64,000 nt of DNA. Source: Aurantiochytrium sp. KH105 (Eukaryota > Sar > Bigyra > Thraustochytrida > Thraustochytriidae). Both the position numbers and the translations under genes were made by a program. The notes below the pieces were generated by a model. That model ran no database searches. It was not told where the DNA came from and saw only the letters and a program-made list of their open reading frames with translations. Positions within the stretch are counted from its first letter, which is position 1. Each line of letters starts with the position of its first letter. The stretch is taken from assembly GCA_003116975.1 (NCBI GenBank), contig BGKB01000058.1, forward strand, positions 124,001 through 188,000, written 5' to 3'. Positions 6,003 to 44,067 of the stretch are shown in pieces.

Positions 6003-7160
6003 CTATGTCTTGCTGTCGCAGCGGCCGCGATGGCCGCAAAGGCCCACGCCGTGCGCGACGTGCCGTCCCTCCTCGACGCTCGCGTCGACGTCGAGGAACT
6101 GGATAGACGCCCGCGCCCCGGTGTGACGACTCAGCGCTAGCTGCTAACCGTCACAGGGGACAGCAGACACCATGATCTATCTATACACGGTACGAGCAGA
6201 GGCTGTTCCCTTTCTTGTCAAGGATAACTGAGCAATAGTCGTGGGTGAGACGTGCGGTGGGGCCCATGGTATAGTAGTACATTACGACTCCAAGGAAGGA
6301 AAGTGCTTCTCGCACGAGAGACACTTTGTATGGTTGGTATGAAAAGGATAATCAGCGATAGGTGCGCCGAGAGGAAGTCAAAATCGCTGGCATAGCTAAT
6401 TTTGGGGAATGAAGAGATGGTATTGTTGCTCTTTGCGTGGCGGCAGCAGCAACAGACAGATTTCGACGTTCCATTTGCACACAACTGTCGTTTTCGCAAA
6501 GAAATGGTCCCAATGGAGACATCGATCAATGACCTTCTTCGACTGTAGCAAACGTAATACAAACGAGGTAGATCGTCTGCTTTGATTCTGCTTTGTTCGT
6601 CGTAAGATATTGAAATTCTTCAGAAGAAAGTTAGATATGAGCACTCTCATTCAGCAGCAGACTGTTCATATCTCTTCGTCCAAGCAAAAGCTTCATTTCA
6701 AGCATGGCATTTTGAAGCTCTAGTTCCCTTGCCAACTCGGTGTTTGGAAGGCGAAGGCAAAGTCTTCTCCTCTTCTCTCTCTCTCTCTATACGTGTGTGT
6801 GCCTTGTCCCTAGTTTTATCCCAGACACCTAACTCTCGGCGCCCTCGCGGCGTCCTCGCGGCGCGCGACCGCGCGCGACCGCGCGGTAGGCAGACTGGCT
6901 GGGTGGCCCGCCGGGCACACGCCAGCAGCCCTCTCCACCTCCTTCTCGCTCGCGCGCGCGCCGGCGCGGCACGCCAAGCACGCCAAGCACGCCAAGCACG
7001 CCGGAGCTGTCGGCCAGCCCATCTTTATCATCTTTTCCTCTGGTCGCCCGAGTCTCTCTCTCCTCTTTCTCGTCGCTTCTTCGCGTCGCCAGCCCAGACA
7101 CGCTCGCTCCCTCGCTTCCTCGCTCCCCGCGCCGCCGCCGCCGCCGCCGCTGCCGCCGCC
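6003..7160. other. Divergent intergenic and promoter region
   Basis: This 1.16-kb gap separates two divergent genes. The left two-thirds are relatively AT-rich. The right part is GC-rich and holds a CT-rich tract at about 6765-6790 and a 9-bp CACGCCAAG repeat at about 6969-7000. An open frame runs through the right part in frame with the ROCO gene, but it begins at TTG, is Arg-rich and lacks domains. I treat it as a 5' leader. Confidence 0.6.
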
Positions 7161-24291: not shown

Positions 24292-26688
24292 CTACGCGCT
24301 CGAACTTGTTGCGCACCGCGCTCGTTTGCGCGTTCCTTCAGGACCTTCTGTGCTTCCCGCGACACGCTTCGATGTGCTTTCGCCTGTTTGTGTGGTACTG
24401 TTGGTGACTTGCTCACTGCGATTCTCGAAAAGCAATTTGAGCGGCAAGCACTCCTTGATGACAGGCTCTCTGCATTCTGGACAACGAGGCGAAGAACTTT
24501 CTAAGGACGATGTCCGAAGCTGCTTGACGCACGGCATGCAGCCAAGGTGACCTTTTTGACACATGACAGTGCAAACCTCAAGACGGTTTTTCTCCAAGCA
24601 GATGGAGCAGATTTCGGTTGTGTTGCCACCGTCCAGGAATTGGCTCTTTTTGCCTAGGAGACGCTGGTACGCTTGCTCGTCAAGGAGTTTGTCTCTCAGC
24701 GTTGCAAAACTTGAGCCTTTTGCAGAGTACTCCTTGTCCACACCGTCGCAATTGAAAAGATTTTTGGGGGTGAGAAAAGTCTCGGCGCGTTCTCTGGCAG
24801 ACTCCTTTGAAACTCGGCAATCACTCTCAACTTCATCGAATTTGGCCTTCAGGTCTGCGTTTTCCTTGAAGCCAAGATGCTGCGCCACCTTTTCCAAGGC
24901 ACTTCGAAGATTCAGGGCTTGGCTTGCAAGGGCCTTGTCCACTCGCTGAAAGACTCCGTATCTTGAAAGAAGGGATTGATTGAGCACCACATCCATTGTC
25001 TCGCTTTCTTGGATGTTTGCGCGAACGTGAGCAAGATAGATGCTTTCTGGAAACTGATGCGCAAACGCTCCTACTGACTGAGTTTGGTCCTCGAAAAAAC
25101 TTGAGGCCCTGGAGCTGCTTGCAAGAATCCCACCCAGCTCGTTCAAGGCCAGCGAGCCTCTACCAAGAAGGATTCCGGACGGAGACATGATGACCGAAGC
25201 GTTGACCCTTTCATCGCTTCTTCGAAAGATCTGCGTGTTTCCAAAGATCTGCGTGCTGGATATACTTGTCTTGAATTTCTGGAAGAAACGCTTAAGCCCA
25301 TCGACGAGAACAATTTGGCGAGTCCAGTTCTTGACCAACTTTTCTTTCCTTGTCGCGATCGCTTGTAATGGACGACGTTGACAGAAGCGAAGAAAGGCCC
25401 TGCATTGGGCCTTAACGAGAGGTGAATGGCTTTTCTGGAAGAAGCGAAAGAGCGCGTCTCGAGGGATATGATCCGTGTCTATCTCCTCGAAGGCTTGCCA
25501 GATTGGTGCTAGGTGATGAAAGTTCTTTCCAACCTTGCAGCGAAGAATGCCGGCTTCGATTTTAGAGAAGAAGCATCTTTCGCTGATTATGCGATGGATC
25601 TTTCCAATGCCTCGAGAAATGCCTCTGTAGGGTCGAAACGGCTCCGTCTTGAGTACCTTGGGCAATGAAGCACGGGAAAGGGTGGCGAGATACGCTTCCA
25701 GGTGCAGCTCCGGCGATGCCAGCAGAATATTGACGCAAAGTTGCACGGCTGTTTTTTGCACATCATCTGGCCCCGTCCCCAAATGAGATGAGAAGCGGGC
25801 GCTTGCAGATCGTGTTAGAGCCTCGAGTTTCTTCATTTCGGATCTCAGCTCCTCAACGTTTGTAATCTCCAAACTTTTGTCTGGTAAGCCCCTGCCCTCA
25901 TCGCCAAAGCAGCCGGCAAGATACTCCCAGCAAGCTGAAAGCGCCTTCTCGCGCGTCGATTTCGTACAGTGGACAATCTTGGCATGCGCTACCAAAACAT
26001 GTCGATGAACGATCGCGCGATTACGAAATGTAGTGGTGCGCCCGTTAGGGTACTTCATGATGAAAAAATTGTCAAAGGACAGAGAGGCTTGGTCTTCACA
26101 AACCTGCAGAAACGCCTTAAGCTCAGGCACTGTCTCTAGCTTTTTAAGATGCTGTGTGAAATCAGCGAACCGCATTTTTTGAGGCAAGGTGATGGACGAA
26201 TTCGTGAGGCTCGTCTCTTCAGAGCCGACATGTTGGTCTTCGACGCTTATCACCAAGCGTGCGTGATGCAGAGCAATACGAGCGCGTTTGTTACAATCCC
26301 GAATGCGCTCGAGGACGCCATCCGCAGTCTCCAAAAAGGTCAAGACTGGAGTAAACACGCAGCTGTTGAGGTGCCTTTCTTCACAATCGATGAAAAGGTT
26401 AGAGCATTGGACCAACTGGATCACCTTTCCGATGTCCTCAACTTCCTCGAGGTACTGGCGAAGCTTGGACACCTTCCACAGTCGCTCTTTTTGTTCCGCG
26501 TTTTTGCCAACTCTGGCGCTGTCGCCGGGGTTCGACGGGATTTGGTCATTTATTCGAGTGCAAAGGGTACGTATTCTCTCTGGCCAATGCACACGACTCC
26601 ACTCTTCGGGCGTGGTGCCGCAAGGCACGGCATTCTTCAGAGCAGATAGCTTCTTTCTCGCTTCGGCGATGACGGAATTCACAGCCAT
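24292..26688 (-). CDS. RING-finger protein, tandem paralogue A (798 aa)
   Basis: The start is the ATG complementing 26686-26688; the frame upstream begins at TTG. The first 690 residues have no family I recognise. They are mostly helical with a conserved middle block (KVGKNFHHLAPIWQAFEEID and AQCRAFLRFCQ). A RING-type zinc finger lies at 694-742: CSIC, then MCQKGHLGCMPC, then RCPEC. The C-x3-GH-L-x-C-x2-C core resembles SIAH-type RINGs. A short basic tail (GTRKRARCATSSSA) follows. An E3 ubiquitin ligase role is inferred from the RING alone. The next gene upstream, at 27411-29807, is a diverged copy of exactly the same length, with matching RING, tail and LEKVAQHLGF segment. Confidence 0.8.
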   Translation of the reverse strand: MAVNSVIAEARKKLSALKNAVPCGTTPEEWSRVHWPERIRTLCTRINDQIPSNPGDSARVGKNAEQKERLWKVSKLRQYLEEVEDIGKVIQLVQCSNLFIDCEERHLNSCVFTPVLTFLETADGVLERIRDCNKRARIALHHARLVISVEDQHVGSEETSLTNSSITLPQKMRFADFTQHLKKLETVPELKAFLQVCEDQASLSFDNFFIMKYPNGRTTTFRNRAIVHRHVLVAHAKIVHCTKSTREKALSACWEYLAGCFGDEGRGLPDKSLEITNVEELRSEMKKLEALTRSASARFSSHLGTGPDDVQKTAVQLCVNILLASPELHLEAYLATLSRASLPKVLKTEPFRPYRGISRGIGKIHRIISERCFFSKIEAGILRCKVGKNFHHLAPIWQAFEEIDTDHIPRDALFRFFQKSHSPLVKAQCRAFLRFCQRRPLQAIATRKEKLVKNWTRQIVLVDGLKRFFQKFKTSISSTQIFGNTQIFRRSDERVNASVIMSPSGILLGRGSLALNELGGILASSSRASSFFEDQTQSVGAFAHQFPESIYLAHVRANIQESETMDVVLNQSLLSRYGVFQRVDKALASQALNLRSALEKVAQHLGFKENADLKAKFDEVESDCRVSKESARERAETFLTPKNLFNCDGVDKEYSAKGSSFATLRDKLLDEQAYQRLLGKKSQFLDGGNTTEICSICLEKNRLEVCTVMCQKGHLGCMPCVKQLRTSSLESSSPRCPECREPVIKECLPLKLLFENRSEQVTNSTTQTGESTSKRVAGSTEGPEGTRKRARCATSSSA

Positions 26689-27410
26689 TGTTGATTTCCT
26701 AGAGAGCAACACACGAGGGAAGGACGTGAGCAAGCGCTCGTACAGCTAGACTCTGTGACTTTGGCCAAGTGCAAGCACGGACGCGGGCGCGAACGCGAGC
26801 GCAAGCGCTGTCGCGGGCTTGGTGGTGCGCGAGTGACTTGCTGGGCGAGCTGATCGTCGTGCGTCGCTTTCGCAGGATGCGCCTCGTGTGCCTTGCGTAT
26901 GCTGTGTGGAGCTCCTGGTTCGCGTTCCGGGTTTGCCTGGCTGCTCGCGCGCTGCTCTGCTTCGCTTCGCTCGTCTCCTCTCATTCTCGGCGCCTGCAAT
27001 GAGGAGAGAGGCTTGGTTCGCGCCGCGCTCTCGAGAGCGCTCTCGAAAAGAGCACTCTCAAAAGAGAGCACTCCCAAAAAGGAGCACTCTCAAAAGGGAG
27101 CACTCTCAAGCCGCTCTCGAGCCACTCTCGAGTGCTCCCTCATATTTCCTTGATGGAAGGAAGACGCATTTCCAGATGGGCGACCGACACGAGGTGATCG
27201 CGGAGCTCGATGACATGAGAGGGACACGAGGGAACCCGAACGTGAAGCTGAGGACTTGGTGTGAGCCAGTGCTGATACGACAAGGCCTATAGCAGCAAAA
27301 ATCACAGAGTAGAGGAAAAGATAAATACGTACCAGGAAAAGAGGAGAAGAAGAAGAGGAGGAGGAAAGGAGAACAAATGGGATCGCTTTGGATTTTTTAC
27401 GCATATACTG
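26689..27410. other. Intergenic region between the RING paralogues
   Basis: About 720 bases without a supported gene. It should hold the promoter of paralogue A and the 3' end of paralogue B. Around 27036-27139 it carries a 16-bp repeat array with an inverted partner, described separately. Confidence 0.6.
27036..27139. repeat. AGCACTCTC 16-bp repeat array with terminal inverted copy
   Basis: Units of the form agcactctcaaaagRg occur at 27051-27066, 27067-27082 and 27083-27098, with degenerate units at 27036-27050 and 27099-27112. The 10-mer gggagcactc at 27096-27105 has an exact inverted partner, gagtgctccc, at 27130-27139, with CTCTCGAG between them. The array is about 350 bp upstream of the paralogue A start. 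Confidence 0.85.
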
Positions 27411-29807
27411 CTACGCGGTTGAGCTCGATGCGTACCGTGCTCGTTTACGCGCTCCATTTAAACCATTCGCGTTGCTCGTGGCACGCTTCGATGTCCGTGT
27501 GCTGCTGATGTCTCCCTCATTGGGCTTCTTGCAAAGCAATTTGAGCGGCAAGCACTCATTAAAGCAGGGCTCTCTGCATTCGAAGCAGGGCGGAGCTCCA
27601 TTGGAAGATGCTTGAACTTGCTGGAAACACCCATTGCAACAGGAATGGCCATTTCGACACACGACAACACGGACCTCGACGCGATTCTCCTCCAAGCAAA
27701 TGGGGCAGTTGTCTGGGCCGCTGTGCCCCCCGGATGCTTGGTCGTTCCTGCTGCGAAGACGCTCGATAGTTTGGGGTGGAAACAGCACGTCTGTCACCGA
27801 TGTAAGACTGCGGCCTAGCGGAATGTACTTGGGGTTACCATCACCCCCCCTTGCGAAAAAATTCGCAGCGGTGTGGTCTGCTTCAGCACTTTTTCGTGCT
27901 GCGATCATGAAATGCTTGCACTGTTCTTCAACATGATCAAAGGTATCCTCCAGTGCCGCGTTGTGCTCAAAGCCGAGATGCTGCGCAACCTTTTCCAGGA
28001 CACTGCGAAGACCTGAAATCTCATGCGCGACGTCCTTGTGCGCGAACTGAAGTGAGCCGCATCGTTCTAAAATAGATTCGCTCAGTACATTGCGTCTTGA
28101 CCTCATTGGTCGGAGACCGGCCTCAGCGCACTTAAGACCGTCAAGAGCAGGGAAGCGTTTCGTAAAGTCCGAAACAGAAAGAGCTCGGAAGCGAAACAAC
28201 TGTGAGAGTCCATAGCTGTTCTCCACTAGGTCGCCTAACATGTCCAGGAATGCCGAGCCACCACCGAGAAGGATCGCGGTCGGGGTTACGATGACAGAAG
28301 CATCGACCTCTACGTCCTTCCTCCTGCGAAAGATTTTAGCGTCCGAAGAAATTGACTTGCCGAAAATACTCGATTCCACTTGTCGAAAGAAGATTTCAAG
28401 CCCCTCAAACAACGCAACTTGCCGGACGTCATTCTCGACCATCTCCTTTCTCCCAATTGCGATCGCTTGTGAGGGACAGAGACGGCAAAAGCGTAGAACG
28501 ACTTTACACTGAGCTTTCGAAATCTCCTCATGAGATTGGCGGTGTTTGCGTGCCTTTAGAAAATCATGGAGCGCGTCTGCTGGGATCAGACCTGTGTCCA
28601 TCCTCTCGAAAGCTTGCCAGATTGCTATCATATAGTTGTACTTGCTTCCAACCTTGCGCTGGAGAAATTCCGCTTCAGCGGCAGAAAAGAACTCTTTGTG
28701 AGAAAGTACCCGGTGCACTTCCTCAAAATACTGGACAAAGGTCGTGTGAAAGTAAAGTCGGAAAGAATTCGCGGACGGATACTGATCGAGCGATGCACTT
28801 TCCAGAAAGTCTAGGTAGTCATGCAGATGCAGCGCCTCTGGTGCGTGTAGAATTTTCACGCAAATTTGTATGACACGAGATCGCAAGTCGTCGGGGCGAA
28901 CCCCGAGATAGGGTACGAAACGGCTGCTTGCATGGCGCGCCAGCTCTTTGAGATTTTCTTTTAGCACCTTCAGGCCAGCTATTGTCTCGCTGGGCTTTGG
29001 CAAATCAGTCAGCTGAGCACCAAAGCATTTGGTGAGGAGGCCCCGACACCGAGACAGTATCTTTGCAACAGTCCGCCTGTTGGTGTTGTCAAGCTTCGCG
29101 TACGCTTGCAACACGGCACGGTAAATACGTTGACGCATTTTTTCGTCGTTACGCCGAGAGGGAGTCTCTTTAAAGAAACCTTGGGAGAAATCGCGAAGAA
29201 CGTGCCTGGTCCAGTAGCGAAGAAAGGCGTCGAGCTCATGTACCGTCTCCAACTGCTCCAGATAATGACAAAAAGAGGAATACTTGATCTCTTTCCGGTG
29301 GGAGGGATAGGTCCACGTCTGCAGTGTACTGATTTCTCCATCGTGAATATCGTGAATCATCTCACGAACAGAGTACAAGGCAACGTAGACCTTTTCGCTG
29401 GACGTTCGAAGACGCTCGAGAGAGCAAATTGCAGCCTGCAAATATGCGCGAAAGGGAGCAAAAATTCGCTCCTCGTGCTCATCGCGGTCACAGAGGATGA
29501 AAAGGGTCTCAGAGAGCACGAGCTCAGTCACTTCATCGATGGAGACGCTCTTGAAGAGGGCGTCTCTGAGTCTTGTCTCCGTCCATTTATGTTCAGATTT
29601 TGCGAGGGAACACGCGTTGGACCGATCAACGGAGAGCTCATCAGAGACCTTTTGTTGTCTCAGAAGCACAACATGCAAGCAGAGCGCGACAATATTCTGA
29701 GGCCAGAGCACGTGCTCGAACCTTGTAAACGTGCGAGGGCTGATCCTCTCCAGCTTGTCCTTTGCTGCCTTACGCGCGCGATTGATAGTGCAAATTGCGT
29801 CCATCAT
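27411..29807 (-). CDS. RING-finger protein, tandem paralogue B (798 aa)
   Basis: The start is the first of two adjacent ATGs complementing 29802-29807; the longer frame begins at GTG. It is a diverged tandem copy of the gene at 24292-26688. It shares the layout: a helical N-terminal 690 residues (KVGSKYNYMIAIWQAFERMD, AQCKVVLRFCRLCPSQAIAI, LEKVAQHLGFEHNA), a C-terminal RING (CPIC, VCRNGHSCCNGC, CFEC) followed by NECLPLKLL, and a basic GARKRARYASSSTA tail. All eight presumptive zinc ligands are kept, although the last pair is CFEC rather than CPEC. An E3 ligase role is inferred. The N-terminal region is not recognisable to me and may define a lineage-specific family. Confidence 0.8.
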   Translation of the reverse strand: MMDAICTINRARKAAKDKLERISPRTFTRFEHVLWPQNIVALCLHVVLLRQQKVSDELSVDRSNACSLAKSEHKWTETRLRDALFKSVSIDEVTELVLSETLFILCDRDEHEERIFAPFRAYLQAAICSLERLRTSSEKVYVALYSVREMIHDIHDGEISTLQTWTYPSHRKEIKYSSFCHYLEQLETVHELDAFLRYWTRHVLRDFSQGFFKETPSRRNDEKMRQRIYRAVLQAYAKLDNTNRRTVAKILSRCRGLLTKCFGAQLTDLPKPSETIAGLKVLKENLKELARHASSRFVPYLGVRPDDLRSRVIQICVKILHAPEALHLHDYLDFLESASLDQYPSANSFRLYFHTTFVQYFEEVHRVLSHKEFFSAAEAEFLQRKVGSKYNYMIAIWQAFERMDTGLIPADALHDFLKARKHRQSHEEISKAQCKVVLRFCRLCPSQAIAIGRKEMVENDVRQVALFEGLEIFFRQVESSIFGKSISSDAKIFRRRKDVEVDASVIVTPTAILLGGGSAFLDMLGDLVENSYGLSQLFRFRALSVSDFTKRFPALDGLKCAEAGLRPMRSRRNVLSESILERCGSLQFAHKDVAHEISGLRSVLEKVAQHLGFEHNAALEDTFDHVEEQCKHFMIAARKSAEADHTAANFFARGGDGNPKYIPLGRSLTSVTDVLFPPQTIERLRSRNDQASGGHSGPDNCPICLEENRVEVRVVVCRNGHSCCNGCFQQVQASSNGAPPCFECREPCFNECLPLKLLCKKPNEGDISSTRTSKRATSNANGLNGARKRARYASSSTA

Positions 29808-30709
29808 GATCCGTACGAGAGAGTCGTACACGAAGACTGGAGATAGCACGAAAGAAAGGCCAGGACTTGGGGGGGCTTGAACGCAAGCACGAGAGGGAGA
29901 GGTTTCGCGTGCGATTCCGCTTGCACACGTGCGTGCGTGCGTGCGTGCTTACTCTTTACGCTTGCGCTTGCGATTTCTCCCTTACTGCCACTTGCTCCGC
30001 TGCGCTACGGTGTTGCGTGCTTGTCCTCGTGCTTGCTTGCTCTCGTGTGCGCAGACCAGGGCCTTCTCTTTGCGGGTTTGCCTCGACGACGATTTCCTCT
30101 GCCGGCTGCACGCCCGCTCTCAAGACACTCATCACCTTAACTTAGGGGACAAAAAGCTTGTGTCGCTACGTAATTTTTTTTTTCCTTTTCGTGCCACTAC
30201 CTGATGCGTTCGTGACACGATTCTCAGGAGGTCACTGTTGAAAGCGTAGTTTCTTTCCTGGTGCCAACGACTGGTCGAATCATAGACTGGTGTCTATTTT
30301 CATGTATGTGCTTGTACATTTCACTTCACACTGTTGCGTTTCTGTATGCTTTTCGCTCATTTTGTTTTCTTCAGTTCAGAAGCTGGACGTAAGCAGGGCG
30401 CTCTTGCATAATCATTCTTGCGCCCCGCTCCCTCCTCCTCCCTTTTCGCGTTAAATTATCGCCCAGCCCACTCCAAACAAGAGAAAGAAAATGAAAACTC
30501 ATGGGGATCCCAAACAAGAAGTTTATTCATCAGTAGCCAGCCAAGCTAGCCTTGGGTCTAGGTCGACAAAGTAAGTTAGCAGCAGGTGGATGGCATCATT
30601 TCGGCATACGCGCATTTAATAGAATGCTTTGCATACTCCGCGCGAAGCTCGGGCACACACGCGAGCGCAAGAAGCAGGGAGCTTGCTTCCCTACATGGCC
30701 AGGTAAACT
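29808..30709. other. Intergenic region upstream of RING paralogue B
   Basis: About 900 bases with no supported gene. It includes a GTGC repeat at about 29930-29950, a CT/TTT-rich part and AT-richer DNA near the reticulon 3' end. TTTATT at 30522-30527 could be the AATAAA of the minus-strand reticulon gene. Confidence 0.55.
30522..30527 (-). terminator. Candidate polyadenylation signal AATAAA of the reticulon gene
   Basis: The complement reads AATAAA about 180 bases past the stop codon of the reticulon gene. It is in an AT-rich context but unconfirmed; protists often do not need this hexamer. Confidence 0.35.
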
Positions 30710-32566: not shown

Positions 32567-35500
32567 TCAGGTGTGTGGGCCGATGATGCGCTTGCGCTTG
32601 GCGAACGAGGGCGAGTGTTTGGAGGAAGAAGAAGTAGAAGAAGAAGTGAGGTCAAAAGACGAGCGCTTCGCGCTCTTCTGCGACTTTGACGCCTTGGCTT
32701 CCTTCCTTCTCTTCTTTTTCCTCATCTTCTTTTCTGCGCGTTTCTGCTCCGCACGTTTCTGTTCCGCGCGGACCGTCTCCTCGTCCAATCCCTCGGAGTC
32801 GCTCTCCTCATCGCCTGATGAGACAATGACGATTGGGTCAATACTCGTCCCAAACTCACCGATCGCAGGACCGGGTTTGAGATAGCTCAGAGCAGGCATT
32901 GGCTCATATGTAGGGCGAAAAGCCTCGAGTGGGTCCGGAGCGTCCTGGGTCGACGCTATATCGCTATTATCTTCCTCGTCCTCACTGAGAATGCAAATAA
33001 CATTTTGATTCTCAATTTGCTTCGCCACGTTCTTCGCAAGGCGTTTCGTCCTCTCCTCCGCCTCTTTCGCCTTGGCCAAATCGTATGGAACAATGCGCTT
33101 CACGCTCATGACACCTGCATCCAGATGGAGCTTGCTGGACTTCTTTTGTTCCGCCCGCACGAGCTTTGCCCACGACGTCATGCTCTTGATAATAGGCTCG
33201 AGGAGAGCATGCAACTGACCTTGAGGTCCAGTGCTGCGCCCCAGGGCGTCTGCGATGTCCTTAGTCGACACAAGCAGAGAGTACGAGGTCGTCTCGCGAA
33301 GAGACTGACTAATCGACTCTGCGGCTGCCTTGGCCTTTTTCCGTTGCGGTCGAGCCTCGAGCCTGGTCTGACTTCGGTCTGCTTTCGCAGGGGAGCTCTT
33401 AACATTCGATGACGAGGAGGAGGACGACGACGAAGACGACGCTGCACTTGGATTGGCCGTCGAGACCCCAAGCTGGCCCGACGGATTCGAGAGAGCGTGC
33501 ATCACAGGGACAACTTCCTCAACCCGTGCCCAAACAGTCTTGATTGGATCCACGCGAAGACTTTCTCCGCCACGGTGCTTCAGGTCAAAGAGCATTGCAA
33601 GTGGGCTGTGGGTCAAAAGAATCGCGAAAGCTTTCCGCACAGCGTCGAGACTTTGGAGTGAATCGACAGAGGACTTGCCGAGGTCGTCCCTGTCCACCAT
33701 CCCTTCGTGTGCTGCAAAGTAAAGAGCGTTCCAGGCTGATTCAATAAAGCCGCCTTCGTCGCCACCGGACCAGCTAAACTCTGATTCCGCGAGGATCTTG
33801 CCCAGAAGCGGCAGGTTTTCCTCGTTGCACACGAGCAGGATGACGAAGTTGCACTGCTCGCAGTAGCTCTTCTTATTCAAGCTCGCCCTCCCACTACCGG
33901 CGCCATTGAAAAAGTGGTTCTCGCAAAACCATGCCTTGTTGCGACCGGTAATTTCACCCCGCGCAACATCCATGGCACAGCACATTTCGCAGCGATGCGT
34001 ACCCACCGCCTTGCAGCCCTTGTGCGCACATTGGCCATGCTTTTGGCAGAGCAAGGGCGGTCGCGGCTCTTCCACGTCGGCCCCAGACGTCCTGTCGCTC
34101 GCCATCGCCTGACCAGGATTGTCCACGAAGCAGGCAATCTGCGTCGGCGAAGACATGCACTCCTGGCAACTGTCGCATTTCAGACACTTGGGACAGCAAT
34201 CCAAGTTGAGGCCCAGCACTGGCGTCAATCGAAAGTATGTTTTCTTCGCGCACGTCAGGCAGACACCGTCCTGGCAATAGTCACATGAAACCACATTGTT
34301 CTCCCGACACTGTTCACCGCACATGCCGCACTTGTTGTGGAAACTGCAAAACACCTGGACCGAGCCATCAAAGTTGACATAGGTGCAAGGCCGGTTCTTG
34401 TCTCTATCCAAAATCTTGTTTGGACGTTTCTCCTCGACACAGTGCATGCAGACAGCATGACCTTGGCAAAGGTTCACGCGCCCGTCCCCGTTCCCTTGTT
34501 CAAAGTTCTGGTAAAGCCCAGAACACCGTTTCTCGGGATCATCCTGCATCACGCAGACACGAGAAACGGCCTCGGCGGCCGAGGACATTGATATCGCTGC
34601 AGATTTGACGACCATGCTTCCGTTTGCGTCAAGCGAGAGATCCCCAGACTTGATGAGGCCATGTGCTCCTAACTTGCCCGTGCGCCGCACGCTCGAAACT
34701 GCGCAGCTCAAGCACCTTGCTTGGCCCTTTCGGAGGACCTGCGCCTGAGAAAGAATTCTCTTGGCGTCCGGGGTCAGCTTCTCCTTGCACATGACCTCTG
34801 CGAGTCCTGCCAAGCCACCAGGGATAAACGAGCACGCTTGCGTACTGTCGTATGCGAGCATTTTCCGGCCACATTTGCACCGAATAATTTCGTCATCGTT
34901 CAGAGCAGAGGTGATGCCGCGCAACTTGATCATGTCCTCGAGTAAATTGGAGACTTCCGAGTCTGGGGCTCTCGCGAGTTTTTGAAAAAAGTTGCGGTAT
35001 AGGAACTTGGCGTTCTTCTTTGAGACGTTTACCATGCGAAACTCCGGCCGCAACTTGCCTCCTGGACGGTCCTCATCGGCGGTCGCTACCTGCTGCGAGC
35101 CTTGCGTTGGGTCGTACGCCTGTGTCACTGGCTGCTGCTCACTTTGCTGGTTCTGCTGACTGTTGATCGGCTGACCTTCGCCAACGATCGCCTCTTCGAG
35201 GTCGCCAATAAACTTGTCCACGTCGTGCCTCAAGGCCGCAACAACAACATCACTTTGCGAGACCGGGTCTTCGCCCAGCGCGCTATTCACACTTTCCTGC
35301 GTCGCGGGGCCCAAGTCTGAAAGCGAAGACTGCGACTGCGAGCTCTCTTGCGAGGCTCCTTTGCCGTCGCCAAGAACCGAGTCCGTCGGCTTTTGCGCGC
35401 GAGCCGGCACGACGTTGACGGCCTTGGTCTCTTTCTTCTGTTTCTGTGCTGCCGCTTCGGTGTCTCGCTTCGTCGCCTGCAATCCATTGGAGTGCGCCAT

Positions 35501-38500
35501 CTGCGGGTTGTGCGCTTTCTTTTGCGCGTGGGCTGCTTGCTGTTGCTTTTCTTTCTGACGCTGCATTTGCTGTTGTTGTTGCATCAGCTGTTGTTGTTGC
35601 ATCAGCTGTTGTTGTTGCATTAGCTGTTGTTGTTGCATTAGCTGTTGTTGTTGCATTAGCTGTTGTTGTTGCATTTGCTGCTGACGCTGCATTTGCTGTT
35701 GTTGCATTTGCTGTTGCATTTGTTGTTGCATTTGTTGTCGATTTTGTTGTCGTTTTTGTGGTCGCGGTGTTTCCGCTGGGGCCGTGTTTTGCACTTTTGG
35801 AAGCACCTGGCCAGGTGTTGCCTGCCCTGGAGCATTTGCTTCGGTCTCAGAATCCGAGCTTTGCGGAGCCTCGTAGTCTTCATCACTGTCGGCGCCAGGA
35901 GACGATGGCTGAGGAGGCAAGCTCAAGCGTGCGCTCCTGCGCCGTGTCGCCTTGCTGCCAAGTGCCTTCAAGAATGGATCACGCGATTTCTTCGTCCTGG
36001 TGGAAGGCCGCAAATCGTCCAGTGCTTCGCTGATGAGACTCGATCCAACCTGCTGTGCAGCTCGTGCAGCACGCGCAGACACAGATTCACGAGTGCTTGC
36101 ACTTTGAGGCTGAGCGTTTGAAGCCTCTGTGCGTCGCGACGGTTCACCTGGCTGTGCAGATTGCTTTGCTGGAGCAGTATTCGTCGAAGAACGAGACGAT
36201 CTTGAGACCCCTGCTTTAGCAGTCGTAGAAGAGGAGGAAGAGGATGACGACGCTGGAACCAATTCCGCTGTCGGTGATGCATTATCGACGGGCCCGCGAA
36301 CCTTTCCTGCGGTGGCGAGCTCTTGGTTGAGTCCTTCGAGCGCAGTGAGCGCGTCTTCCTCTTGCGTGCCAATGACAAGGTCTTCATCATCATCGGGCTC
36401 GGTTTGAGCAACGATTGCGGATGACCTGCGGGATTTTGAGGCTTTTTTCTGCGAATTAGCGACAGGTGCTGACGCAGCAGCTGATGTAGACGATGCTTTT
36501 TTTGAGACCGGCGCGGCGCGAGAGAGCTCAGGATTCTCGATTTCCTTCCCTCGTTTTGCGGGGACTGATCGCTTGGACAATTTCGGGCCCTTGGCGCCCT
36601 GGCCGCGCGCATGCGCATTGACAACCTCAGACGAAGTATGAGATGAGTTTTCGTCGTCAACCTCCATGTCGGCGGCCCCATCTTCTTCATGACTACCCAG
36701 TGTTTTATCGTCATGGACCTCATCGTCGCTGGAGTCTGCATTTTCGTCGTCTTGGCGACTCTTCTCTTCCTTGCCAGATGTAGCCGGCGTTGTTCGCGCG
36801 GCCATCCGAGCAGATGCGCGACGCGGAGTCTTCTTTTCTTCAGCGCCATCTTTCCCGTCGATGGTCTTTTGCGCGGTGGCATCACTGTTTGCACTCGTCG
36901 TCGCCACCGCCGCTGCTGTCGCCGCAGTCGTCGTCGCCGTCGCCGTCGTAGCAGTAGCAGCAGCAGTACGATCGACAGGCTCCGACTGAGCAGCCTGATC
37001 AAGACTCTCTGCGGCTGGCGGAGGCGGGCGACTTTGCGTCTTCTTGATGGCGAGAGCGAGGTCCGGCACTTTGAACTTTCTAGAACGCGAGTACGCTTGC
37101 TTGCTCGGCTCAAAGAACTCTTCGACAAGACCCTTTTTCAGACGCCAGCTCCGGGTGCGCTGCGTCCCAAAGATAAAGTCGGAACGTCGCTTAATCTTGT
37201 CAAACCGCTGGTGCGAGACAAGCGCCAACTTGGTGGACCAGAGCCGAGCATAACTATGAACGCGCTCGCGCTCGTTTTCAAGTTGTGAAAGAGGGATGTT
37301 CGGCTGCAGGCGATGCATCTCTTCGGCACTCAAGAGATACTCGTCCATGTCACGAGGAAAAGCGCGGCGCAGACGACCTTCGCGCTGCTCAGACTTGGCA
37401 TTTGTGGAGGTGTTGGTTTGCATACAGCTCACCGCGAGACCCGGGTCGCTGTAGGCGCGGTCGAGAAAGTTGACCACAAAAAGGACGTTGATTTTGGCCG
37501 ACTTGAAAAGCTCCAACATTTCCTCGTCAGACCCAACCTGCTTTCTCACGTAACGCTTCTCGCTCTTGCTCCACTTGAGCCAGAGCCGAATCTCGCCACC
37601 CGGCATGAGGGCGCCAAAGGACACCTTGACGCCGCCAAGACGTCGAGGCTTATCGTCTCTCGAGTCCTCGATCAGACGGATGATATACTCTATCTGCGTT
37701 TTTTCCCGCATGTGAAAGAGGGCACGCCGTTTGACCCACTTGAAGCAAAGTTGCTGCAATTGCGCGTTGCGATGGCCCTGATGCAGCGCCTTGATAGAGC
37801 TCTCCTCCTCGGGCCGCGGCGAGGCCGACGGCGTCGATTCTGTATTTTCCTTTGTCGGCCCAGACGGGGTGACTCGGTCATCGAGGGGGTTGCCCTCGAA
37901 TGCCAGATTGAGCACGGACATGCACAGGTGAAACCACGCATCGAGCTGTACATTTTCGTGGCCATCGGTGCGGAGGATCCAGAGACTCGAGACCGTGCCG
38001 TCCCGCACGGCATCGGACAGGGAAAATCCATTCGGATAATCGTCCCACTGAATTGTGCACATGGTGCATTCGTTTTGTGCGGGACAGTGGTTGCTAGGAT
38101 CATGATACGCCATGCGCTTGCAGTCCCGAAAGTCCACTGTCGAGAACACGTTGTTGTAGTAATGGTACAAATCAGTGGTGGCCGAGAACCAGAATTGGAA
38201 AGAAAAGCGACGAACACGCGCGAGAAAATTCTTGCTCTGCGACTTGTCTGCTTTGGTGTCAATACCCTGTTCCTCGTCATAATGCGACATGGACACCTCA
38301 AATCCAGGAAAATTGAGAATAGAGCCCTCCGACTTGAAGCCTTGAATCGTGCCAAAAGCCACCATCCAAAACAAAGCATCGTGTTCCGTCTCCTTTTGAG
38401 CTGTGTCGAGTTTGGTGCCTGGCTTTAAAAAGTGCACATACAAGTGATCGATACCGCTCATCGATCCCCCGTTGAAGGTAACTCTCGCCAACACGTTGGG

Positions 38501-39742
38501 TAACGTCGCGATGATACGACTCGTTTCATCGCGAAACCCGCGCGCCACCACCAGCTCTTTGGACAATTTCTCCTTGCCGCGCTCCCCATTTGCATATCTG
38601 ACGGGAACAGTCCAGTTATCATGGATCAAGTCTCCAATAATGATGTATTCAGGGGTGCATAGCACCGGCGCGCCCTTGCCCTTCCCTTTTAAGTCGCCCC
38701 ACGCGGTGTTTAAAATATTCTGCGCTTGTTCGGTGGACAAAAACTGTGACTGCAGGTCAAAACTGTTGCGAAAGTTATCAATTGACTTGGTAAAGGCGCT
38801 GGCGATGATGCTGCGCTCCGAGACAAGATTTCCATCGCGCAAAAAGGCTTTGTCAGGCCCCGGTCGCGGCTCGGCAAGCTTGCGCGAGGCGCGGACCAAG
38901 TCGGCGAGCGAGGCCCGCGAGTCAAGCTTGAGAGAGGCTATCGTGAGTAATTTCACAGGGACACGAATGTAATTCGCCGGCAAGAGCGACTGCAAGAGTG
39001 CAGCGCCCAGCTTACCAGCGCCCGTGCAAGCACGCATGCAGACACCGTAATTGTCCAAAAGAGCGAGTTCGCCGTTCTCCCAATCGCCAGAAAACAGTCT
39101 GTATAGGTAAAGAACCTGAACGTAGCGTAAAAGACCAGATGGGAACTGCGCTTTTTTCGCGTCGAGACGCAAGAAATTCTCGAGCGACATTTGTCGCTGT
39201 TCGTGCATCGTCTCGTCAAGGCGAGCGAAATCAGGATTACCTTCCGAGTCAAGAAAGGTGTCTTGCCGTCGGCTTCTGAGCTCTTCGCATGCAGCGTTTA
39301 GGCCCTTGACAAGATCGCGTCGAGGACCAGCCATGAAGAGTTTCATGAGGAGTAAGGACTCCTCCTTGAGCCACCACTGTTCGTATGTGAGACCCTCGAG
39401 CATCTTGCCGGAAGACGCCGGGAACTTGAAGTCGCTCGCGCCATCGACAAGGTGCCTTTGTGCAGACTGTGCCAAGCAGCTATCCAGGTCAAAGTGGGTT
39501 TCGTTGTTTTCGATTCTGGTGCACCTACGAATGAGCTTGAGCCGCTCGTTGAGCGCCGCCTCGGTCGACTCGCCCCTCACGCGGGATTGCTCAAAGTACG
39601 ACGCGCGTAGATTCTCCTTTTTACCTGACACAGAGACGAGTTCCATATCACGCAAGAAAGTGCCCGAGTTCGCGTCGCCGTTATTCACAGCAGGGATCTC
39701 CTCGCCACCCGCACCTTGATCGGTCCCAGACTGTTTGGCCAT
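32567..39742 (-). CDS. Very large Cys-rich, Gln-rich nuclear-type protein of unknown family (2391 aa)
   Basis: The gene starts at the ATG complementing 39740-39742. Residues about 80-880 form a folded region with no family I recognise (e.g. FWMVAFGTIQGFKSEGSILN and RRFSFQFWFSATTDLYHYYN). About 930-1560 is low complexity: acidic, Ser-rich and basic stretches and a QQQQLM repeat at about 1329-1394. Residues about 1610-1965 are Cys/His-rich. Visible pairs are CKCGRKM, CQGHAVCMHC, CSFHNKCGMCGEQC, CDYCQDGVCLTC, CCPKCLKCDSCQEC, HRCEMCC and YCEQC, which suggest several zinc-binding modules of PHD, ADD or RING type. The C-terminus is Ser-rich and ends with Lys/Arg clusters (KKMRKKKRRKEAKASK) that look like nuclear localisation signals. 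A chromatin role is plausible but inferred. No catalytic domain is recognisable. Confidence 0.75.
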   Translation of the reverse strand: MAKQSGTDQGAGGEEIPAVNNGDANSGTFLRDMELVSVSGKKENLRASYFEQSRVRGESTEAALNERLKLIRRCTRIENNETHFDLDSCLAQSAQRHLVDGASDFKFPASSGKMLEGLTYEQWWLKEESLLLMKLFMAGPRRDLVKGLNAACEELRSRRQDTFLDSEGNPDFARLDETMHEQRQMSLENFLRLDAKKAQFPSGLLRYVQVLYLYRLFSGDWENGELALLDNYGVCMRACTGAGKLGAALLQSLLPANYIRVPVKLLTIASLKLDSRASLADLVRASRKLAEPRPGPDKAFLRDGNLVSERSIIASAFTKSIDNFRNSFDLQSQFLSTEQAQNILNTAWGDLKGKGKGAPVLCTPEYIIIGDLIHDNWTVPVRYANGERGKEKLSKELVVARGFRDETSRIIATLPNVLARVTFNGGSMSGIDHLYVHFLKPGTKLDTAQKETEHDALFWMVAFGTIQGFKSEGSILNFPGFEVSMSHYDEEQGIDTKADKSQSKNFLARVRRFSFQFWFSATTDLYHYYNNVFSTVDFRDCKRMAYHDPSNHCPAQNECTMCTIQWDDYPNGFSLSDAVRDGTVSSLWILRTDGHENVQLDAWFHLCMSVLNLAFEGNPLDDRVTPSGPTKENTESTPSASPRPEEESSIKALHQGHRNAQLQQLCFKWVKRRALFHMREKTQIEYIIRLIEDSRDDKPRRLGGVKVSFGALMPGGEIRLWLKWSKSEKRYVRKQVGSDEEMLELFKSAKINVLFVVNFLDRAYSDPGLAVSCMQTNTSTNAKSEQREGRLRRAFPRDMDEYLLSAEEMHRLQPNIPLSQLENERERVHSYARLWSTKLALVSHQRFDKIKRRSDFIFGTQRTRSWRLKKGLVEEFFEPSKQAYSRSRKFKVPDLALAIKKTQSRPPPPAAESLDQAAQSEPVDRTAAATATTATATTTAATAAAVATTSANSDATAQKTIDGKDGAEEKKTPRRASARMAARTTPATSGKEEKSRQDDENADSSDDEVHDDKTLGSHEEDGAADMEVDDENSSHTSSEVVNAHARGQGAKGPKLSKRSVPAKRGKEIENPELSRAAPVSKKASSTSAAASAPVANSQKKASKSRRSSAIVAQTEPDDDEDLVIGTQEEDALTALEGLNQELATAGKVRGPVDNASPTAELVPASSSSSSSSTTAKAGVSRSSRSSTNTAPAKQSAQPGEPSRRTEASNAQPQSASTRESVSARAARAAQQVGSSLISEALDDLRPSTRTKKSRDPFLKALGSKATRRRSARLSLPPQPSSPGADSDEDYEAPQSSDSETEANAPGQATPGQVLPKVQNTAPAETPRPQKRQQNRQQMQQQMQQQMQQQQMQRQQQMQQQQLMQQQQLMQQQQLMQQQQLMQQQQLMQQQQQMQRQKEKQQQAAHAQKKAHNPQMAHSNGLQATKRDTEAAAQKQKKETKAVNVVPARAQKPTDSVLGDGKGASQESSQSQSSLSDLGPATQESVNSALGEDPVSQSDVVVAALRHDVDKFIGDLEEAIVGEGQPINSQQNQQSEQQPVTQAYDPTQGSQQVATADEDRPGGKLRPEFRMVNVSKKNAKFLYRNFFQKLARAPDSEVSNLLEDMIKLRGITSALNDDEIIRCKCGRKMLAYDSTQACSFIPGGLAGLAEVMCKEKLTPDAKRILSQAQVLRKGQARCLSCAVSSVRRTGKLGAHGLIKSGDLSLDANGSMVVKSAAISMSSAAEAVSRVCVMQDDPEKRCSGLYQNFEQGNGDGRVNLCQGHAVCMHCVEEKRPNKILDRDKNRPCTYVNFDGSVQVFCSFHNKCGMCGEQCRENNVVSCDYCQDGVCLTCAKKTYFRLTPVLGLNLDCCPKCLKCDSCQECMSSPTQIACFVDNPGQAMASDRTSGADVEEPRPPLLCQKHGQCAHKGCKAVGTHRCEMCCAMDVARGEITGRNKAWFCENHFFNGAGSGRASLNKKSYCEQCNFVILLVCNEENLPLLGKILAESEFSWSGGDEGGFIESAWNALYFAAHEGMVDRDDLGKSSVDSLQSLDAVRKAFAILLTHSPLAMLFDLKHRGGESLRVDPIKTVWARVEEVVPVMHALSNPSGQLGVSTANPSAASSSSSSSSSSSNVKSSPAKADRSQTRLEARPQRKKAKAAAESISQSLRETTSYSLLVSTKDIADALGRSTGPQGQLHALLEPIIKSMTSWAKLVRAEQKKSSKLHLDAGVMSVKRIVPYDLAKAKEAEERTKRLAKNVAKQIENQNVICILSEDEEDNSDIASTQDAPDPLEAFRPTYEPMPALSYLKPGPAIGEFGTSIDPIVIVSSGDEESDSEGLDEETVRAEQKRAEQKRAEKKMRKKKRRKEAKASKSQKSAKRSSFDLTSSSTSSSSKHSPSFAKRKRIIGPHT
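35571..35690 (-). repeat. 18-bp coding repeat (QQQQLM)n
   Basis: Five to six near-identical 18-bp units encode QQQQLM within the 2391-residue protein, embedded in a longer Gln/Met tract. CAA and CAG codons alternate and the repeats differ by single synonymous changes. Confidence 0.85.
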
Positions 39743-40746: not shown

Positions 40747-43700
40747 TCATGATGATTTACGAGCCTTAGCTATGCATCGGTCAACGATTGACAGCGCCTC
40801 GAAGTCGGCTTCTAGCTGTGAAGCGCTCGCCAAGACCTTCGACGGTGACCTTTGACTCCGTGCGAGAGCAATACAATAGTCTACTAGTGAGACAGATAAC
40901 TGGGAGGCAACGCTCGAATCTTTTTTGTCATAAGTCTTGAGTTGAGCTTGCTTACGTGGCGAAATCTTGGAACTTATTGCTACAATGACCTCATTTGCGC
41001 CGACTCTTTCGTCTTTCGAATGATTCATCTGAATCAAATCTCTTGCGCCGCTCATGTCGCTTTTCTTGTCCGACAAATCATCGCGATGCAAGGAGACTGA
41101 CGTTTGGTCGTCACTCGAGTTCGCATTCTTTTCGCGACACTTTGCCTGGTCCAATTCTTGCTTTATATGATCGCCATTATCTTCCTTCGACGAATCATCT
41201 TGATGCAAAGAGACCGCGACTTCTTTGTCCTTTACCTTTGTCTTCTCTCCATGGGGACACTCATGATTCAAATCTTCCTCTGCTTCATCGTCATTCTCTT
41301 CCTCTGCTTCATCGTCATTCTCTTCCTCTGCGTCATCGTCGTTCTCTTCCTCGTCTTCATCGTCATTCTCTTCCTCTGCGTCATCGTCGTTCTCTTCCTC
41401 GTCTTCATCGTCATTCTCTTCCTCTGCGTCATCGTCGTTCTCTTCCTCTGCGTCATCGTCATTCTCTTCCTCTGCTTCATCATCATTCTCTTCCTCTGCG
41501 TCATCGTCGTTCTCTTCCTCTGCTTCATCGTCATTCTCTTCCTCTGCTTCATCGTTCACGAGTCCTCCAAATTTTTGCTCGAGTGATTTCAGGAAGTCCA
41601 GTGCAACACGCGCTGCAACCTCGTTTCCACAACGACCGCTTGCAAGCCATTTCAGCAAAAGTGCTGTCCTTGGGTTCTGACAAGAGTGTTGACGCTCGAG
41701 ATCATGCAAGCGATCACTGTAGTCTGCACAGCGCTCGCGATTGTCGCGGCTCGGTCCCAATTTTACAGCCTCGCAGATACTCTCGAACTTGCTTCGAGGC
41801 CAAGCTGATGACGTCTTGGAGGAAAATGCGCTGATGTTGAATGTTTCTGGCATGCTAACGAAAAGGTCTTCCGGGGGAAGGACTTTTTTCGCACGTTTCT
41901 TAAAAGCTGTTAAACTCAGGCCTCCATCAGGTTTGAATAAACGTGTAAGATCTAGGCACTCTGACACCGACCAAACGTCTTTGAATGGGCTCCCTCCTCG
42001 TGTCCTATCTGCGAGCTCATACGGATACAGCCGAAACAGGGAGAAGGCTTCAATAAGGTCCTCGAGGTGTTGTACAAAGAGGTCTTTCGCACTATGAAGG
42101 CCCCAAACCCTTTTTTGTTCTTTTGGATCGTCTGGAAAAGCGACGGTATGCGCCCTCCACATTCCAGCCTGGGATTCTAGCGCGTCCCTATGGTCCTCGC
42201 AATATTTAAGCTTTTCCGAGTATTTTTTTGCAGATAAGGCTTGATTCAAGGCTCTGTTGACCAAGACTATATTGCCCAAGCTATGAAGCCACCATTTTTC
42301 CTTCGGGTCTTTGCTTGCCTGCGGGTGAATATGCTCGAACCACAGGTCGCTGCTGATCATGGCTGGTATCGACTCTGGTGCGTTTTGCTTTTGAGTCCGC
42401 GCTGCAGCGTCACAGGCGACGAGAATATAGCGAAAGAGCGCCCTCTGATCCCTCAGATACTTGTAAAACTTGGGCACACTCATGCGCACAATAAAATCTA
42501 CGCGATCTTCGCTGGAGACTGCAAAATGCTGTGAAATCAAGCATAGTAGGTCCAAGGGGGTCTCTATCGGTTTTTCCTCGTCTGTCAGCTCATCGCACGC
42601 CTCTTTTGCAGCAAAAGCAAAGGCAGCCTCGCGCCACACTGTCCGGAGCGTAACGTTGACGACACAAAAACGCTCCACTATGCGAAATATATGCCAAATT
42701 GTCTGCCAGTACATACCCTGCCAGGGTTCGCTCGCGCAAAGGCGTCGCGTATGGACCCATGCCGCGACTAGAAAGTCTTCAAAGTAGACATAGTATTTTT
42801 GGAATAGCATTTTCCGCGCCAGCAGCCAGCGGAGCTGTACAAAGGCCGTATTCTCCGCTTGTCCGACGTCTTCAATTTCTGCGGCACCATGGTATGGTCG
42901 ATCTTTTGCGTTAAGGCCGTTCCGCAGATACAATATGCACTCACAGACAGTGATCAGCTCGAGAAAAACAGTCTGTACTTTGCCTTTATCCCTGTCCGCG
43001 ATGGCAGCATCAACAAAGTGCATGTAAAACGCCCTCTGGTCGCTCAAATATCCTTTGGCGACATCTTGCTTGAAGCAGCTTCGATAGACAGTACCAACCG
43101 CAGTTTCAAAAGCTTCTTCGCGGGATGCAGGTGAGAGGTGTGCGAGCTTCTCGGCAATCTTGGCAAAATGTGAGCGAAGATTGCGCAGGATCGGCAAGTC
43201 TTTGTTTTCTCTATTCTGGGCGCGCAATGAATCTTCAGTATACATGCGAAGGAACTCAAGTCCAGTGAATGGTTTCGCTTGAAACGTGTTTCTCATTTTG
43301 AAAACGTTGAGCGCGCGTCGTTTCTCATTTACAGTCAGCGTTGGAACTGCGATGCGCGAGAGAAAGCAGTCAACGAAGCGATCGATGGACGATTCACGAT
43401 CTTGAGACGGCCATGGCCATTGGCGCAGGACCCCAAGGATCTCGAGCAAGTTGTCCAGGATCGAACTGAGCTGAGCCGAGGTTGCACGAAAGTCACGCAT
43501 GCCGGAGCTCGACTCGGCAGCAGCCCAGAGCTGCTCAATGGTAATTCCTTGGAAAATATCGGTCTGTAAATTGGGATTTTCACCTGCGAAGAGCGCTTCG
43601 CAAAGTTTTTGAAGAATCTTGCCTTCGGTCTCATGCGCGACGGCTTCCCAGCGCAGGCGGGCTTGACAATCTCGCTTGGCGCCCAAGAACCGGGCAAGCT

Positions 43701-44067
43701 TTTTTTTAGTTGTGTTCTGCGACCCGTTTTGCTTCAAGAGAAAGAGGTAGCTCGCAAACCCAATAAGATGGAGGGTCATGAGTCGCTGTTGGCCGTCCGA
43801 GACTTCGACTGTTGCGCTTTCAGCATCTTGAGCAGATCTTTGAAGGGTCACGAGACCGAGCCAGTACGGAAGCGCCTGGTTTCCATAAGTGGCACCGATG
43901 ACGACGGGCTGGAAATGCCGCAAAAGGGTGCCAACGAACTCTCGCGCCCGCTTGACCTCCCAAACGTAGCCGCGCTGGTAGTCGGGGACGACAAAGTATT
44001 CACCTAGCTCATCCAAATCTTCGAGTGCAAACGCGGCGACCTCGCCGTCGTTCTCGAGGATTGGCAT
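40747..44067 (-). CDS. DUF262-DUF1524 (GmrSD-type) nuclease-like protein (1106 aa)
   Basis: I start at the ATG complementing 44065-44067; the longer frame uses TTG. The N-terminal domain matches DUF262 (GmrS/ParB-Srx fold): VPDYQRGYVWE at 27-37 and DGQQRLMTLH at 91-100, the two hallmark motifs for NTP binding and hydrolysis. A helical middle follows. The DUF1524 His-Me finger nuclease motif is at 577-615: FEHIHPQ (H579, H581), then LGN (N599), then N608 and SAKKY. In bacteria this pair forms GmrSD-type modification-dependent restriction enzymes and BrxU, which cut phage DNA carrying modified cytosine. Here the usual motifs are intact, but the protein is about 1.5 times longer and ends in a 24-bp-repeat acidic tract (about 836-934) and a Lys/Ser-rich tail. 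Bacterial origin by horizontal transfer with later eukaryotic extension is the natural inference. The present function is unknown. Confidence 0.85.
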   Translation of the reverse strand: MPILENDGEVAAFALEDLDELGEYFVVPDYQRGYVWEVKRAREFVGTLLRHFQPVVIGATYGNQALPYWLGLVTLQRSAQDAESATVEVSDGQQRLMTLHLIGFASYLFLLKQNGSQNTTKKKLARFLGAKRDCQARLRWEAVAHETEGKILQKLCEALFAGENPNLQTDIFQGITIEQLWAAAESSSGMRDFRATSAQLSSILDNLLEILGVLRQWPWPSQDRESSIDRFVDCFLSRIAVPTLTVNEKRRALNVFKMRNTFQAKPFTGLEFLRMYTEDSLRAQNRENKDLPILRNLRSHFAKIAEKLAHLSPASREEAFETAVGTVYRSCFKQDVAKGYLSDQRAFYMHFVDAAIADRDKGKVQTVFLELITVCECILYLRNGLNAKDRPYHGAAEIEDVGQAENTAFVQLRWLLARKMLFQKYYVYFEDFLVAAWVHTRRLCASEPWQGMYWQTIWHIFRIVERFCVVNVTLRTVWREAAFAFAAKEACDELTDEEKPIETPLDLLCLISQHFAVSSEDRVDFIVRMSVPKFYKYLRDQRALFRYILVACDAAARTQKQNAPESIPAMISSDLWFEHIHPQASKDPKEKWWLHSLGNIVLVNRALNQALSAKKYSEKLKYCEDHRDALESQAGMWRAHTVAFPDDPKEQKRVWGLHSAKDLFVQHLEDLIEAFSLFRLYPYELADRTRGGSPFKDVWSVSECLDLTRLFKPDGGLSLTAFKKRAKKVLPPEDLFVSMPETFNISAFSSKTSSAWPRSKFESICEAVKLGPSRDNRERCADYSDRLHDLERQHSCQNPRTALLLKWLASGRCGNEVAARVALDFLKSLEQKFGGLVNDEAEEENDDEAEEENDDDAEEENDDEAEEENDDDAEEENDDDAEEENDDEDEEENDDDAEEENDDEDEEENDDDAEEENDDEAEEENDDEAEEDLNHECPHGEKTKVKDKEVAVSLHQDDSSKEDNGDHIKQELDQAKCREKNANSSDDQTSVSLHRDDLSDKKSDMSGARDLIQMNHSKDERVGANEVIVAISSKISPRKQAQLKTYDKKDSSVASQLSVSLVDYCIALARSQRSPSKVLASASQLEADFEALSIVDRCIAKARKSS
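41268..41560 (-). repeat. 24-bp in-frame coding repeat (NDDEAEEE)n
   Basis: About twelve tandem 24-bp units encode NDDEAEEE or NDDDAEEE variants in the DUF262-DUF1524 protein. The units are nearly identical at DNA level, so copy number probably varies between alleles and assemblies may be compressed here. Confidence 0.92.

Follow-up and report, generated by a model that had tools for sequence, protein, structure and literature searches.

The 64,000-nucleotide stretch analysed here (the window; Aurantiochytrium sp. KH105, contig BGKB01000058.1, which we call C58, positions 124001-188000, from a genome of 76 Mb in 367 contigs) carries a GmrSD-like gene, A1, whose membership of the GmrSD family is well supported by domain content, motifs and fold. 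We consider A1 to be most likely a catalytically competent GmrSD-class nuclease, and we place near an even chance the reading in which this nuclear enzyme destroys modified foreign DNA. The gene lies on the minus strand, where its ATG begins at 44067, its last codon ends at 40750 and its stop codon reaches 40747. The elements that define it are given below, with residues numbered on the A1 protein (aa, amino acids; NTP, nucleoside triphosphate).

40747..44067, minus strand: GmrSD-like gene A1, 1106 codons plus stop in one open frame without an internal stop
43288..43995, minus strand: GmrS / DUF262 ParB-Srx NTPase-sensor domain, aa 25-260
43960..43986, minus strand: P-x-Y-Q-R-x-Y-x-W motif, aa 28-36, with YQRGYVW at aa 30-36
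43783..43797, minus strand: DGQQR, NTP-binding motif, aa 91-95, unchanged across all 45 bacterial homologues
42193..42471, minus strand: GmrD / DUF1524 His-Me nuclease domain, aa 533-625, PF07510 at 38.1 bits
42244..42339, minus strand: HNH core FEHIHPQ...LGN...N, aa 577-608

Inspection of the translation with Pfam places both halves of a GmrSD enzyme in one protein, as had been proposed by an earlier reading made from the letters of the window only (the sequence-only reading). GmrSD_N (DUF262, PF03235) scores 54.5 bits against a cut-off of 33.2 over aa 25-260 and GmrSD_C (DUF1524, PF07510) exceeds its cut-off of 23 over aa 533-625, with no third domain found in the Pfam scan. The three signatures that the same reading had called intact are all present, the nuclease core comprising FEHIHPQ at aa 577-583, LGN at 597-599 and a second N at 608. 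The GmrS motifs of the family are found as Q31-R32, D91-R95 and F256/N260 (FxxxN), and the E/D-H-N-N tetrad of GmrD as E578, H579, N599 and N608; Q583 and N608 are invariant in a seven-row alignment. The predicted structure joins a ParB/Srx NTPase fold to a His-Me nuclease fold, where the secondary structure predicted for the nuclease domain includes strands at 575-579 and 600-604 and a helix at 605-611.

Conservation was assessed against 45 bacterial homologues drawn from 113 open reading frames (ORFs) on 80 loci, which were the best 80 of at least 194 confirmed. The 45 comprise 31 of the 33 ORFs with [E/D]-H-x-x-P-Q and 14 others, and the nuclease columns look more conserved than they are family-wide because those 31 were picked for that motif. 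A1 keeps 23 of the 28 columns that are conserved at 90% or above, including P28, Y30, Q31, R32, Y34, W36, D91-G-Q-Q-R95, F256 and N260 and, in the C-terminal half, E578, H579, P582, N599 and K619. Every sensor, NTP and nuclease motif position among the 28 is retained.

A1 is a resident nuclear gene. Contig C17 is syntenic with C58 across the ~27 kb compared, where the five largest blocks are 93-95% identical in nucleotide sequence and two shorter blocks 87-89%. C17 also carries a copy of the gene, A2, that encodes 1159 aa, is open throughout, is 89% identical to A1 and has the same listed motif residues. Because C17 holds the same neighbourhood and an intact copy, both haplotypes appear to be present in the assembly. 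Bacterial contamination, named by the sequence-only reading as the outcome that would undo its proposal, is rejected on the same evidence, since the C17 copy lies in the same eukaryotic neighbourhood. Codon usage of A1 correlates at 0.74-0.77 with that of other window genes, at the low end of their own range (0.73-0.96), and its GC content at third codon positions (0.53) is the lowest among the genes compared; both values may be compatible with an old transfer.

The presence of two haplotypes allowed nonsynonymous (dN) and synonymous (dS) divergence to be computed between them. For gene A, calculated without the acidic repeat described below, dN is 0.054 and dS 0.097, giving a dN/dS of 0.56 (bootstrap 0.42-0.78). 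This compares with dN of 0.006-0.025, dS of 0.074-0.095 and dN/dS of 0.07-0.27 for four neighbours. The A protein is therefore constrained, yet evolves faster than the four neighbours compared.

The genome holds a second gene of this kind, paralogue B. On contigs C6 and C15, PF03235 has further matches that stay below the Pfam cut-off, and these contigs form a second haplotype pair; both pairs, C58/C17 and C6/C15, show ~92-95% nucleotide identity, with gene order conserved in the stretches compared. Paralogue B encodes ~1570 aa, including a long C-terminus; a myosin-MyTH4 gene flanks it on one side and a RhoGAP gene on the other, and PF07510 (GmrSD_C) was undetected in it by Pfam. The best match of A is B, at 72 bits and collinear over aa 15-828, whereas the best of the 113 bacterial ORFs reaches 36 bits; A and B are reciprocal best matches at 22% identity by BLASTP and 25% by MAFFT. 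A quick tree was built from 4 protist rows and 76 bacterial ones, the latter being one ORF each from 76 of the 80 loci, with ORFs that were cut or below 450 aa dropped. In it A and B join with a Shimodaira-Hasegawa-like approximate likelihood ratio (SH-aLRT) support of 97 and no bacterial row falls inside, although this union may be false in view of a program warning about long branches meeting at that point. Inspection of the B sequence reveals D-G-Q-H-R, E592, H593 and N610 retained. The P, Y and R of the sensor motif of A are replaced by N, D and I, the F of FxxxN is a C, and B has lost the H-x-x-P proline. An AlphaFold2 model of its first 1113 aa has a mean predicted local distance difference test (pLDDT) score of 48 and is usable only in the N-terminal part. 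Between haplotypes dN/dS for B is 0.43 (0.32-0.58). The simplest reading is that the gene duplicated within the eukaryotic lineage and that the sensor then diverged. A tentative elaboration, which we think possible on the doubtful side, is that B serves as a regulator, partner or second effector while A would be a host-sparing nuclease that cuts foreign modified DNA.

Modification of host DNA was approached through C5-methyltransferase genes and CpG content. The genome-wide methyltransferase search was made by exon, so that its counts are lower bounds. Three of the five candidate loci scored with PF00145 exceeded the cut-off (L024 on C10, L025 on C149 and L026 on C72), of which those on C149 and C72 are near-identical partners. 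In PDB searches, the C10 and C149 translations both found DNMT2/tRNA-methyltransferase entries as their best matches, and C10 also matched the bacterial HhaI methylase, more weakly; no methyltransferase of the DNMT1/3/5 type was found at the exon level. To our knowledge, a genome with two DNMT2-like genes and no other C5-methyltransferase is unusual. The CpG observed/expected ratio is 1.15 for the window and ranges from 1.08 to 1.17 across eight further loci of 8-10 kb and from 1.09 to 1.22 across five strips between large ORFs. Because only DNMT2-like enzymes were found and CpG is not depleted, the genome sequence gives no sign of nuclear 5-methylcytosine (5mC) in the host. A nuclease dependent on modified cytosine might therefore spare host DNA, and the earlier suggestion that the protein processes modified nuclear DNA is weakened.

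A foreign target is plausible because DNA methylation in giant viruses and mirusviruses in this genus have both been reported. Excerpts of PMC7253447 describe N6-methyl-adenine (6mA) or N4-methyl-cytosine (4mC) in several giant-virus families and 5mC in some chloroviruses, whereas the putative enzymes of Acanthamoeba Mimiviridae are described there as not methylating the DNA of these viruses; Aurantiochytrium, a thraustochytrid, is a host of mirusviruses according to an excerpt of PMC12911909. Since A1 shares its parts with SspE and BrxU, we infer an NTP-driven, modification-sensing DNA nuclease, where catalytic activity, modification dependence, target and defence role are all assigned by homology. 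The N-terminal ParB/Srx-fold domain, through P-x-Y-Q-R and DGQQR, would bind and hydrolyse NTP and sense DNA modification. This sensing step would in turn license the C-terminal His-Me nuclease, with its E-H-N-N residues, to nick or cut modified DNA. Large DNA viruses, ingested bacterial DNA and mobile elements would be the targets, and self-damage would be avoided through the apparent absence of modified cytosine from host DNA. Among the candidate roles, defence against modified foreign DNA comes first, with the balance of probability close to level.

Several observations weigh against a defensive nuclease that cuts modified DNA. The five departures of A1 from the conserved columns are D47T, G264A, L267F, K274R and W301F, where D47 is near-invariant. 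For the GmrS domain alone dN/dS is 0.96 (0.49-2.22), a value as compatible with relaxed constraint as with an arms race, and the experimental YN00 method of Biopython returns higher values throughout, at 0.74 for the whole of A, 1.44 for GmrS and 0.61 for paralogue B. No defence or mobile genes were recognised with Pfam among 16 neighbouring ORFs; a neighbourhood of defence islands or mobile elements is typical of the GmrSD family and not defining for it. A search for Tet/JBP hydroxylases gave no match, with no signal from its control either, and host modifications other than modified cytosine, including adenine modification, may exist. In the giant viruses surveyed in PMC7253447 the methylation reported is 6mA or 4mC and not one of the 5-modified cytosines that BrxU cuts (excerpt of PMC8565348). 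Finally, B no longer has the P, Y and R of its sensor and nevertheless persists under a dN/dS of 0.43, so that members of this family can be retained in a different role.

The GmrS ratios by both methods, together with D47T and the four other departures, would also follow if A were a decaying former nuclease, its frame still open and its activity lost. We regard such decay as very improbable: the whole-protein ratio lies below 1 by either method, and both haplotype frames remain open at ~10% synonymous divergence with identical motif residues.

The behaviour of B bears on a different alternative, in which A would be a domesticated genome-maintenance nuclease acting in repair, recombination, replication-fork or chromatin processes, with the bacterial chemistry kept for housekeeping DNA structures. 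A nuclear gene among eukaryotic genes, its acidic repeat tail and the retention of both haplotypes and a paralogue at dN/dS below 1 are all consistent with such a role, as is the fact that B keeps the nuclease E, H and N and has lost the sensor residues. We nevertheless consider it unlikely, because A1 retains the whole P-x-Y-Q-R motif, Pfam shows no domain in it beyond the two of GmrSD, and a dN/dS of 0.56 against 0.07-0.27 in four neighbours would be unusual for a core maintenance enzyme.

Were A to cut modified DNA in defence, as we favour, it would be a case of restriction serving as innate immunity in a eukaryote. The nuclease encoded at this locus is type IV-like, intact in its motifs and maintained by selection, and it belongs to the nuclear genome of a eukaryote in which no sign of cytosine methylation was found. 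If true, the defensive reading would support the absence of self-methylation as what permits such restriction. On the more doubtful elaboration that also gives B a part, eukaryotic genomes free of 5mC could be a niche where type IV restriction of bacterial origin is retained time and again.

Beyond the two GmrSD domains, the C-terminal part of A1 comprises three further elements.

41578..42150, minus strand: extension, aa 640-830, collinear with paralogue B
41273..41555, minus strand: acidic EENDDEAE-type tail, a 24-bp tandem repeat in 11.8 copies (Tandem Repeats Finder)
40750..41190, minus strand: C-terminal tail, aa 960-1106, in which Ser, Lys and Asp look abundant by eye

The extension has no match in the 113 bacterial ORFs. 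Searched alone it reaches B only at E 0.14, whereas the whole A-B alignment extends to aa 828, and the A1 structure model is of low confidence over this region. The acidic repeat tail described by the sequence-only reading is real, and the Lys/Ser-rich C-terminus that it noted is visible by eye, although rich in Asp as well. Over aa 960-1106 the haplotype dN/dS is 0.60 (bootstrap 0.30-1.73).

The setting of A1 is eukaryotic, in agreement with the earlier description of a gene among ordinary protist genes. Eight of the 16 neighbouring ORFs score over a Pfam cut-off (WD40/Roc-COR, RCC1, sugar transporter, anoctamin, sulfate permease, SET, APH-type kinase and WD40), seven have nothing at E 0.001 and one has sub-cut-off matches only. 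A defence library, run on two of these neighbours besides A and B, matched neither. Directly downstream of A1 on the same strand is an ORF of 2391 aa (32567-39742, minus strand) with a haplotype dN/dS of 0.27, for which Pfam gave no match even at E 5 and the PDB no useful match. The adjacent ORFs at 24292-26733 and 27411-29849 (both minus strand; 813 and 812 aa) are 36% identical over 794 columns and have weak, sub-cut-off RING-finger-like matches near their C-termini; they form a tandem-duplicated, otherwise unclassified family. The ORF at 6729-9977 (plus strand) combines WD40 repeats with Roc and COR-A in a Roco-type architecture, and the ORF at 2742-6002 has a sub-cut-off phage terminase match at E 0.016.

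Relatives of A were also sought among mobile elements and viruses. Recent transfer from a known donor is unsupported, as tblastn returned 1015 plasmid and 192 phage records of which none covers 80% of the query; the 30 plasmid and 30 phage matches listed show 26-40% identity over short stretches. NCBIfam has no match for A or B, and in PHROGs A matches two weak families of unknown function and B none. In the viral structure library BFVD, the A model matches DUF262 proteins of Harvfovirus (A0A3G5A262, 759 aa, E 1e-8) and Yasminevirus (A0A5K0U9T2, 806 aa, E 2e-7), which rank second and third behind a phage protein. Proteins named GmrSD N-terminal from Hokovirus (A0A1V0SF45), Indivirus (A0A1V0SDN5) and Catovirus (A0A1V0S9I8) follow at E 0.02-0.09. 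These matches would suit a gene that came from giant viruses, or that they have in common with the host, and that still serves a virus-related function such as inter-virus competition or recycling of host DNA. Against this origin, the TM-scores to the Harvfovirus and Yasminevirus proteins are low (0.34 and 0.20), and no viral gene exceeds a Pfam cut-off among the 16 neighbouring ORFs. Furthermore, of four scans of viral_contigs, three (query P0001, 5 loci; a mixed alignment, 82 loci with 80 kept; an A/B alignment, 3 loci) matched only query residues 1-174, the N-terminal GmrS region, at 25-39% identity, and the fourth, with paralogue B, found no loci. We judge a giant-virus connection of this kind to be rather improbable.

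Among known systems, the best structural matches of the predicted A1 fold are SspE and DndI entries. SspE, from the phosphorothioate-sensing SspABCD-SspE defence system (PDB 7DRS, 6JIV), is 15% identical to A; the two differ by a root-mean-square deviation of 23 Å overall and in domain arrangement. Unlike SspE, A1 is eukaryotic and has the extra aa 640-830 region, the acidic repeat tail and a long C-terminus. P28, Y30, Q31 and R95 of A1 pair with P61, Y63, Q64 and R133 of EcSspE by motif and not by superposition. The entry titled DndBCDE-DndI (PDB 9JFL), whose DUF262 chain we take to be DndI, represents a member of the bacterial dnd system, also 15% identical and 596 aa long against 1106 in A1. 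These two relatives, and the presence in A1 of the residues that form the phosphorothioate cavity of SspE, raise a further alternative in which a 'self' mark on DNA would stimulate NTP hydrolysis and so license cutting of unmarked foreign DNA. A host DNA mark would then be required, fold similarity does not fix the ligand, and we know of no phosphorothioation of eukaryotic nuclear DNA, which together make this mode of action distinctly improbable. In EcSspE, excerpts of PMC13251355 report that the P61, Y63, Q64 cavity recognises phosphorothioate and that GTP hydrolysis depends on the arginine of DGQQR; in the mechanism proposed there, this hydrolysis licenses a flexible HNH domain.

The type IV enzymes BrxU (PDB 7P9K) and E. 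coli GmrSD share both Pfam families with A1, along with the QR, DGQQR, FxxxN and E/D-H-N-N motifs. BrxU cleaves DNA with 5mC, 5-hydroxymethylcytosine (5hmC) or glucosylated 5hmC in the presence of ATP and does not cleave unmodified DNA (excerpt of PMC8565348), and GmrD N169 and N178, named in an excerpt of PMC4619093, have the same spacing of 9 as N599-N608 of A1. The presence of GmrSD in eukaryotes is not new, because PMC4619093 catalogued it in 2015; in the part of that paper used here, homologues occur in 613 organisms with fully sequenced genomes, 3 of them eukaryotes, and the eukaryotic groups are Bacillariophyta, Chlorophyta and Heterolobosea. These homologues are eukaryotic like A1 and were compared by description, as the part used here only catalogues them. 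That catalogue goes against the sequence-only reading where it names the gene as its best candidate for an undescribed system, and SspE and DndI replace BrxU as nearest solved relatives; its account of a resident nuclear GmrSD gene holds, as do the family, motifs and two-part fold shared with GmrSD and BrxU. No functional study of a eukaryotic GmrSD was among the literature matches listed, in a search with most subscription journals outside it, and no mention of GmrSD or type IV was found in PMC11291487. Nor did we find a published description of a protist pair like A and B with the extra region, the tail and a sensor-altered paralogue. A marine protist has likewise acquired a bacterial restriction system in the case of the HpaII-type restriction-modification of a katablepharid mitochondrion, which, in contrast to A1, is Type II, mitochondrially encoded and equipped with its own methyltransferase (excerpt of PMC8099122). 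In comparison with these systems, the GmrSD kind itself is known, and what appears to be new here is the A/B pair, the extra region and tail, and the paralogue with an altered sensor.

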